From NCBI GenBank assembly GCA_947453445.1, contig CANGGP010000003.1, positions 62,001 to 126,000 on the forward strand: DNA of 64,000 bases. The letters run 5' to 3'. The stretch's first letter is position 1, and each line of letters starts with the position of its first letter. Positions 21,903 through 22,672 of this stretch are shown here, one piece after another. Source of the stretch: Sphingobacteriaceae bacterium. GTDB lineage: Bacteria > Bacteroidota > Bacteroidia > B-17B0 > Aurantibacillaceae. Position numbers and translations under genes: made by a program. Under the pieces are notes generated by a model, which worked only from the letters and a program-made list of their open reading frames with translations, made no database searches and was not told the DNA's origin.

Positions 21903-21930
21903 AAAAAGCCACCCATTTAGGTAGCTTTTT
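21903..21930 (-). terminator. terminator downstream of the split tRNA-Arg
   Basis: The stem 21903-21913 pairs with 21920-21930 (one mismatch). Read on the minus strand it ends in a run of T's. It lies 9 bp beyond the tRNA 3' end. Confidence 0.8.
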
Positions 21931-21939
21931 CTGCTTTTG

Positions 21940-22096
21940 TGGTAGTCCCACTTGGATTCGAACCAAGGGCCGCAGGTTTAGAAAACCTGTGCTCCCCGCC
22001 TGCATTTGCGCTAGCTTGTGCGTCGGCGGGCAGACCCGCCTGCCTTCGCGTTAGCTCATGCGTCGGCGGGCAGGTATCCAGCTGAGCTATGGGACC
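21940..22096 (-). pseudogene. tRNA-Arg(UCU) interrupted by an 80-bp insertion
   Basis: All 77 tRNA positions, including the encoded CCA and the anticodon loop TTTCTAA, are identical to the intact tRNA-Arg at 22523-22599. The gene is split between the D-loop (GCTGGATA) and the 3' strand of the D-stem (GAGC) by exactly 80 bp (21995-22074). With the insert in place the D-arm cannot fold normally, so I call it a pseudogene unless the insert is removed from the RNA. A terminator follows, but no perfect TAnnTTTG box lies upstream. A tRNA intron is unlikely at this position. Confidence 0.85.
21995..22074. repeat. tandem pair of 40-bp GC-rich palindromic units (copy 1)
   Basis: Two consecutive 40-bp units (21995-22034, 22035-22074). 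Each begins CCCGCCTGC and ends GGCGGGCAG(A/G); CCCGCC pairs with GGCGGG and inner CGC with GCG to give an imperfect hairpin. They are much richer in G+C than the surroundings. The second unit is identical to 22171-22210. Confidence 0.92.
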
Positions 22097-22123
22097 AAAA
22101 TATTTATTTAAAGAACTATCACT

Positions 22124-22226
22124 TGTGCTCCCCGCCTGCCTTTGCATTTGCCTGCGCGTCGGCGGGCAGGCCCGCCTGCCTTCGCGTTAGCTCATGCGTC
22201 GGCGGGCAGGTTTCCAGCTGAGCTAT
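22124..22226 (-). pseudogene. tRNA D-arm remnant split by a second 80-bp insertion
   Basis: On the minus strand ATAGCTCAGCTGGAAA (22211-22226) is followed by an 80-bp insert and then GAGCACA (22124-22130). These flanks equal the D-arm of the adjacent tRNA-Arg apart from one base, and the break is at the same position. Beyond these 23 bases no tRNA similarity remains, so it is either a heavily decayed tRNA or a D-arm fragment carried along with the insert. Confidence 0.7.
22131..22210. repeat. tandem pair of 40-bp GC-rich palindromic units (copy 2)
   Basis: Units at 22131-22170 and 22171-22210, with the same architecture as copy 1. Unit 22171-22210 is identical over 40 bp to 22035-22074; the first unit differs in its central loop region. 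Confidence 0.92.
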
Positions 22227-22496: not shown

Positions 22497-22523
22497 AAAA
22501 GCCTTCATGATTTGAAGGCTTTT
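22497..22523 (-). terminator. terminator of the intact tRNA-Arg
   Basis: A perfect 11-bp stem (22497-22507 with 22513-22523) and 5-base loop begin at the last base of the encoded CCA. The minus strand reads GGCTTTTAATTT after it. Confidence 0.9.
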
Positions 22524-22599
22524 GGTAGTCCCACTTGGATTCGAACCAAGGGCCGCAGGTTTAGAAAACCTGTGCTCTATCCAGCTGAGCTATGGGACC
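22523..22599 (-). tRNA. tRNA-Arg(UCU)
   Basis: A 77-base cloverleaf: acceptor GGTCCCA/TGGGACT (first pair G-U), D-arm GCTC/GAGC, anticodon stem CAGGT/ACCTG with loop TTTCTAA (anticodon UCU, reads AGA/AGG), T-arm CTTGG-TTCGAAT-CCAAG, discriminator A and encoded CCA. It has its own promoter upstream and terminator downstream. It is probably the functional copy, given the split second copy nearby. Confidence 0.95.
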
Positions 22600-22642: not shown

Positions 22643-22672
22643 CAAAGGTAAAAAAAGAAATTATTTAAACAA
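22643..22672 (-). promoter_or_regulatory. promoter of tRNA-Arg(UCU)
   Basis: On the minus strand TTG (22670-22672) is followed after 19 bp by TACCTTTG (22643-22650), a perfect TAnnTTTG. The box lies 43 bp before the mature tRNA 5' end, giving a precursor leader for RNase P to remove. Confidence 0.65.

Follow-up and report, generated by a model that had tools for sequence, protein, structure and literature searches.

The interrupted tRNA-Arg(UCU) gene in the window (by which we mean the whole stretch of 64 000 nucleotides that was analysed) is a real feature of this genome and is most likely to be the footprint of a widespread GIY-YIG element that resides in tRNA genes. We consider it very probable that the split copy is a non-functional by-product of this element, which would be small, mobile and homing-like and would consist of a single-domain GIY-YIG nuclease gene together with pieces of tRNA. 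The evidence comprises an association of the nuclease gene with tRNA genes, a shared strand, recurrent split sites, displaced tRNA halves, occupied and unoccupied alleles of one locus, nearly identical units at two different tRNA genes of a relative and purifying selection on the nuclease.

The features of the locus are listed in Table 1. On the minus strand they follow one another in the order intact tRNA, hairpin, GIY-YIG ORF, truncated tRNA piece and split copy. The nuclease gene is the only recognizable gene between the intact and split copies, and no site-specific recombinase gene, by which an integrative element would be identified, lies between them. A DNA search of the genus found the intact gene to be the only full-length, high-identity tRNA-Arg(UCU) match in the window's genome. 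As a first-pass annotation of the sequence had proposed, the 80 bp insert of the split copy falls at the junction between the D-loop and the 3′ strand of the D-stem, between nucleotides 22 and 23, and all 77 tRNA bases of the split copy are those of the intact gene (22599–22523; 100% identity) across a gap of about 425–427 bp. The description of the insert as a palindromic dimer is right with a qualification: it does comprise two palindromic units of 40 bp, but the palindromes are imperfect here and the two units agree at 34 of 40 positions. The same annotation overlooked the second split fragment and the GIY-YIG gene that lies between this fragment and the intact tRNA. The truncated piece and the split copy form a 106 bp direct repeat with 92% identity, and the TAG stop codon of the nuclease gene coincides with nucleotides 8–10 of the truncated piece that follows it. 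When related genomes were searched for the same split, as had been suggested, inserts of 40 and 80 bp were recovered at the same 22/23 step in G001. An assembly error is unlikely to be the source of the split, which is found at the same nucleotide in several other genomes; G001 consists of one contig and shows the same anatomy, which argues against an assembly quirk.

Table 1. Features of the split tRNA-Arg(UCU) locus, in window coordinates
Feature	Position	Strand	Basis
Promoter-like TACCTTTG upstream of the intact tRNA	22643..22650	-	By eye
Intact tRNA-Arg(UCU)	22523..22599	-	ARAGORN; Rfam 68.6 bits
Terminator-like hairpin 3′ of the intact tRNA	22500..22520	-	By eye
Single-domain GIY-YIG nuclease gene, 86 aa	22223..22483	-	PF01541, E 4e-16
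Second, truncated tRNA-Arg piece (about nt 7–22, one change; insert; about nt 23–29)	22123..22226	-	Direct repeat
80 bp palindromic dimer in the truncated piece, same nt 22/23 site	22131..22210	-	
Complete tRNA-Arg(UCU) copy split after nt 22	21940..22096	-	
Split copy, nt 1–22	22096–22075	-	
Split copy, 80 bp insert: two 40 bp imperfect palindromes, CCTGCC...GGCGGG type	21995..22074 (minus strand, 22074–21995)	-	
Split copy, nt 23–77	21994–21940	-	
Terminator-like hairpin 3′ of the split copy	21903..21930	-	By eye

The first-pass annotation had also raised the idea that the split gene still yields a working tRNA once an insert in the D-arm is removed, which would make the insert a new kind of bacterial tRNA intron. 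Preservation of 77 of 77 tRNA bases speaks for it, as does the predicted RNA of the split copy, in which the acceptor, anticodon and T arms are kept and the insert forms separate hairpins. The split copy scores a marginal 29.2 bits as a tRNA in Rfam against a threshold of 29, compared with 68.6 bits for the intact copy, and it is the intact copy that has a promoter-like sequence; inspection by eye showed none ahead of the split copy. The insert lies in the D-arm and not in the anticodon loop, the usual site in bacteria; Rfam finds no intron family at the locus at E values up to 1. Many of the split copies in relatives are truncated, their inserts range from 14 to 103 bp in length and tRNA bases are sometimes replaced. 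The claim of a removable insert is thus left without support, and we give it almost no credence. The two other accounts that had been offered, namely a recent insertion and ongoing homogenization of the copy, are both compatible with a mobile element that makes a second copy of the tRNA.

The 86-residue product of the nuclease gene matches PF01541 with 59.5 bits (curated cut-off 22.6), which is the only Pfam domain found in it; no NCBIfam family matches the protein. The AlphaFold2 model forms a single domain with a mean pLDDT of 92.1, and a separate DNA-binding domain is not evident in it. A second look at the Foldseek matches gave HIGLE (Z = 7.6), Slx1 (Z = 7.4) and the catalytic domain of I-TevI (Z = 6.2) as the best structural matches; these values are modest and agree with the sequence that the predicted fold is GIY-YIG. 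Residues Y8, Y20, R30 and E66, which we take to be the GIY-YIG active-site Tyr, Tyr, Arg and Glu at the positions known from I-TevI and UvrC, are invariant in 19 sequences of relatives, as are S12, G22, H34 and K70. The gene is a short ORF of its own outside any intron or intein, and no Rfam intron family accompanies it. Among the ORFs with at least 60 bits and at least 65 residues, 99 of the 181 pairs with at least 72% identity had a finite Ks above 0.1; the median Ka/Ks of these pairs is 0.152, with values below 0.5 in 98 of the 99, and the nuclease is therefore maintained as a protein by purifying selection. Seven PF01541 matches are present in the window's genome. Three short ones adjoin tRNA genes (Arg-UCU, Arg-CCG and Ser-GGA), and two further short ones lack an intact tRNA within the surrounding sequence examined, one of them (L010) being cut by a contig end beside a split tRNA-Met-like piece. 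The remaining two are long (open frames of 462 and 467 residues) and have no tRNA alongside.

Nuclease genes of this kind adjoin tRNA genes far beyond the window. A survey of 114 loci from the window's genome and its relatives yielded 138 ORFs, of which 83 have a tRNA no more than 500 bp away, with 23 isoacceptors represented; these loci (30 chosen automatically, 80 hand-picked from the relatives' list and four more from the window's genome) are a selection and not every listed place, a few ORFs occur in two overlapping loci (e.g. L035 and L096) and a few loci are shared between surveys. A random place would fall within 500 bp of a tRNA in about 0.9% of cases, as estimated from 32 tRNA matches (the split copy not counted) in 3.72 Mb, which is a lower bound as 150 of 287 tRNA candidates were scored. 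The best 80 of 156 relatives in named genomes were examined, and 78 of these loci adjoin a tRNA; three of the 89 ORFs do not have one, and at the two loci lacking a tRNA the contig stops about 35 bp past the ORF. A phylum-wide search gave a match in 195 of 296 genomes, with a tRNA adjoining 28 of the 30 loci listed and eight of 42 ORFs having none within 500 bp. The ORF is on the strand of the closest tRNA, sought on either strand, in every case (83/83 for relatives, 86/86 for named genomes and 34/34 phylum-wide). The records include Thermoflavifilum thermophilum, Flavobacterium, Pedobacter and Sphingobacterium and, outside Bacteroidota, WOR-3/Stahlbacteria, Chlorobiota, Ignavibacteriales and Omnitrophota. 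No confirmed relative of the nuclease was obtained in a scan of IMG/VR and none was found on plasmids; the phage collection gave distant matches only, in Rhizobium phages, with at most 36.5% identity.

The other 55 of the 138 ORFs in the survey of relatives have no tRNA within 500 bp; some are at contig edges and two are at tmRNA genes. Rfam, run on 40 loci without a tRNA, placed tmRNA beside two (L089 and L146) and gave weak tRNA matches in two others (L108 and L040). Since the tmRNA genes (L089:1015-1381 and L146:1855-2252) adjoin GIY-YIG ORFs on the same strand, they suggest that tmRNA is also a target. At L293, two tandem GIY-YIG ORFs are flanked by an exact 106 bp direct repeat (1085–1190 and 1798–1903); no tRNA is present and no RNA family was found in Rfam at E values up to 0.5, and the repeat is a possible non-tRNA target. 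No RNA family was found at L312, L029 or L041 either.

These surveys also bear on whether the small GIY-YIG protein might serve the host in tRNA or DNA metabolism, with its gene placed close to tRNA genes for co-expression. The invariably shared strand and the purifying selection would suit such an enzyme. Its presence is patchy, however, at 67 of 100 genomes in the search behind the relatives' list and at the phylum-wide frequency given above, and the phylum-wide search showed that some genomes have numerous copies and tandem arrays; the tRNA partners are varied, broken tRNA copies lie alongside and near-identical units occur at two tRNAs. A host-enzyme role is highly improbable on these grounds. 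As an example of an array, L292 (G330:C1:120138-122159) holds five GIY-YIG ORFs in tandem with 450 bp spacing beside tRNA-Leu(CAG).

Split tRNA copies number 95 in 76 loci and involve 13 isoacceptors; the count, 108 before correction, leaves out places fetched twice (L164 = L014 and L175 = L017), nine tandem-array artefacts of L162 and two nested doubles. L162 itself (G001:C1:2148288-2151866) contains truncated tRNA-like units of ∼95 bp in tandem beside two GIY-YIG ORFs and is an array, not an insert. Within an isoacceptor the split step recurs across families, including WOR-3 and Omnitrophota records. Arg(UCU) is split after nucleotide 22 in 12 cases and Arg(UCG) after the same nucleotide in 15, Arg(CCU) is split after nucleotide 21 in 12 cases and also after 17, 26 and 55, Met is split after nucleotide 22 (four cases) or around nucleotides 36–42 (three) and Val in the T-loop (three). 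An unpaired tRNA position is touched by 21 of the 24 site classes that are pure insertions, against about 58% of random steps; the corresponding p of about 0.002 assumes independent classes, which these are not, and loops are also conserved sequences.

The intact and broken tRNAs are arranged in a consistent way around the nuclease gene. Where the intact tRNA is upstream of the ORF, a fragment was detected at 45 of 66 loci; at 37 of these the 3′ end of the tRNA lies downstream, two have a 5′ end alone and six an internal part alone, and the other 21 loci have no detectable fragment. Where the intact tRNA is downstream, a 5′ end lies upstream in 68 of 75 loci with a fragment (3′ only in one, internal only in six), with four further loci lacking one. 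The opposite-strand control gave one of 145. An element that lands within a tRNA gene and rebuilds the tRNA at one of its junctions should leave this pattern. The stop codon of the ORF is inside the downstream intact tRNA for 46 of 90 ORFs, at nucleotide 21 in 21 of them and at nucleotide 8 in 19, so that the nuclease gene overlaps the tRNA that the element would rebuild.

Occupied and empty alleles coexist at one locus, that of tRNA-Arg(UCU) in the genus. We examined 30 such loci, some cut by contig ends, of the 40 genomes with matches; the neighbouring glycosyltransferase gene is kept in 26 and the nuclease gene is present in four (the window, G001, G009 and G028). Split pieces were found in three of these four, the G009 element having none, and in two of the other 26 loci, which are unoccupied (hypergeometric p of about 0.009). 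The two, in G020 and G034, are pieces split in the T-loop by a palindrome, with no nuclease gene in the stretch examined, and they can be relics. The window's intact tRNA has the same sequence as two unoccupied alleles, those of G021 (over 77 nucleotides) and G022 (over 75), although G022 does not offer a clean empty site, as the orientation of its tRNA relative to the glycosyltransferase gene differs. A sequence change that might protect the intact tRNA was looked for against the unoccupied alleles and was not found; the intact tRNA should hence still be a target, which counts against the homing-like reading.

The flanks of the two copies in the window suggest which halves are original. The promoter-like TACCTTTG upstream of the intact tRNA presumably corresponds to the Bacteroidetes −7 type promoter motif TAnnTTTG, which also precedes the tRNA in all six unoccupied sites viewed (L054, L056, L057, L058, L064 and L065). 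The hairpin 3′ of the intact tRNA is probably element-borne, because a similar hairpin is located between the tRNA and the nuclease gene in G001 and G009. The hairpin 3′ of the split copy is probably the original terminator of the tRNA gene, because the bases that separate it from the tRNA (ACAAAAGCAGAAA) resemble by eye those of two unoccupied sites (ACAAAGCAGAAA in L065 and CATAAAGCAGAAA in L056). From the promoter-like sequence on the 5′ side of the intact copy and the L065/L056-like bases on the 3′ side of the split copy, we infer that the intact tRNA combines an original 5′ part with an element 3′ part and the split copy the reverse, an assignment of halves that relies on short similarities seen by eye at these two unoccupied sites. 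The intact tRNA would then be the original promoter and nucleotides 1–22 joined to element-borne nucleotides 23–77; the split copy would be element-borne nucleotides 1–22 and the palindrome, joined to the displaced original nucleotides 23–77 and the original terminator.

Movement is indicated in G030, where two units (L032 and L088) align over 685 bp with 93% identity overall and are nearly identical outside the tRNAs. The nuclease gene is included in both, one unit directly following tRNA-Met(CAT) and the other tRNA-Arg(ACG), and the similarity begins at the tRNA 3′ ends and extends past the ORF to a short stretch that resembles a tRNA 3′ end. As the two tRNA genes are not allelic, such a unit moves; this is evidence at the level of the family, since the G030 unit differs from that of the window and is situated at tRNA 3′ ends and not in the D-loop. 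The G030 pair is a clean case for defining the ends of the mobile unit. In a tree of the nuclease with 138 rows the isoacceptor tracks descent, with 52 label changes compared with 92–104 in 200 shuffles; resolution is poor (good support for 17 of 135 inner branches), and the tree left out ORFs of less than 60 bits or less than 70 residues, identical sequences, loci with no tRNA within 500 bp, L164, L167 and L175.

The inserts themselves are mostly palindromes. The 40 bp units of the window fold at −20.7 and −15.6 kcal/mol and the whole 80-mer at −37.0 kcal/mol, with a z of only −1.9 against mononucleotide shuffles; the first unit is identical (40/40) in the full split copy and the truncated copy. 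In some relatives perfect palindromes occupy the 22/23 site, and in 21 cases, from 16 loci in distant bacteria, the inserted sequence is the perfect palindrome CCTGCCTGCCGGCAGGCAGG. Other inserts are different palindromes, some of which replace tRNA bases, and a few (e.g. Ser-UGA after nucleotide 13) fold no better than shuffles. Outside tRNA genes, palindromes of the TCCCGATAGCTATCGGGA type are dispersed at 0–47 copies per genome of the genus (whole genomes G000 to G039; reversed control, 0–1), and another type has 82 copies in G067 and 19 in G095 with at most one mismatch. We therefore reject the notion of the palindrome as a tRNA-only sequence. The palindromes, being dispersed in some genomes, are not exclusive to the nuclease element, and, as they occur elsewhere in these genomes, the element may have recruited existing repeats and not made these parts itself. 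That the palindrome is the cleavage target of the nuclease also appears unlikely given the 82 near-exact copies of one type in G067.

The dispersal of the palindromes raises the further alternative that an independent palindromic repeat, REP-like or similar to the Rickettsia palindromes, was inserted by chance into a duplicated tRNA and that the nuclease gene is a bystander. The split pieces of G020 and G034, which have a palindrome and no nearby nuclease gene, would also fit this account, though they can be relics. Chance insertion does not explain why palindrome-split pieces recur at the same step beside a nuclease gene across families, WOR-3 and Omnitrophota, why every nuclease ORF near a tRNA is on the strand of that tRNA or why split pieces at the Arg(UCU) locus go with occupancy, and we regard it as distinctly unlikely. 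The suspicion that the 80 bp might be a repeat unrelated to tRNA genes is thus partly borne out: such palindromes are indeed dispersed, but those found inside tRNA pieces return to the same one or few sites in each isoacceptor.

The tRNA-resident, homing-like element would act as follows. Its point of entry into a tRNA gene would be fixed (here the 22/23 step at the end of the D-loop), and it would be arranged such that one junction recreates a complete tRNA and the other leaves a displaced tRNA half beside a short palindrome. In an unoccupied tRNA gene the nuclease would cut at the position that is interrupted in the split copies, and the break would be repaired from an occupied locus with flanks that match both sides of the cut, as in intronless homing. 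The palindrome would plug the cut site and keep the pseudo-copy from being cut again. The split copies do carry an interrupted site, and the intact tRNA carries a site identical to that of the empty alleles. Free-standing GIY-YIG enzymes typically cut their own donor allele inefficiently, according to a publication on SegB (PMC13096335). A bolder proposal, which we put forward tentatively and consider rather doubtful, is that this class of element, with a single-domain, Slx1-like nuclease, finds tRNA and tmRNA genes throughout the phylum by a folded DNA shape (cloverleaf or cruciform) and not by a long sequence, the palindrome being a working part that serves as an end or as a decoy fold. Shape recognition would explain the many isoacceptors and the tmRNA, the mostly unpaired split sites and the lack of a separate DNA-binding domain.

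The closest precedent is SegB of phage T4. In T4 and T6, SegB is a free-standing GIY-YIG homing endonuclease of the tRNA region that is reported to cut within tRNA genes and to drive segmental amplification (PMC13096335). SegB resembles the present system in that a GIY-YIG gene lies outside introns and beside tRNA genes, and tandem arrays are seen for the present element. SegB is phage-borne, whereas the present element resides in bacterial chromosomes and its protein is essentially one GIY-YIG domain; unlike SegB, it is accompanied by one tRNA that is rebuilt and another that is split by a palindrome, and related enzymes occur at many isoacceptors. Intronless homing endonucleases of the T4 SegF type have the nuclease gene beside the target, with occupied and unoccupied alleles. 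The present nuclease gene likewise adjoins its presumed target and has both kinds of allele; the difference is that the tRNA target is rebuilt and that its cleavage is here presumed. Rickettsia palindromic elements and REP repeats are short dispersed palindromes that are able to interrupt genes, whereas the palindromes described here lie next to a nuclease gene and keep to one or a few recurrent positions in a given tRNA. The double-hairpin elements of organellar DNA are GC-rich hairpins that are thought to be mobile and share their genomes with homing endonucleases; they differ in being organellar, and we are aware of no case in which such an element plugs a tRNA site next to a GIY-YIG gene. 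The open-access literature, to which our search was confined, contained no description that we could find of the elements reported here.

Genes for tRNAs are known landing sites for integrases. A much smaller selfish unit, consisting of one nuclease gene of roughly 80–90 codons together with tRNA pieces, appears to have colonized tRNA genes across Bacteroidota. It raises the question of how a single GIY-YIG domain chooses one nucleotide step in an essential and conserved gene without killing its host. Such an element would explain the tRNA fragments, the palindromes in tRNA pseudogenes and the arrays of tiny GIY-YIG ORFs that are found in these genomes.
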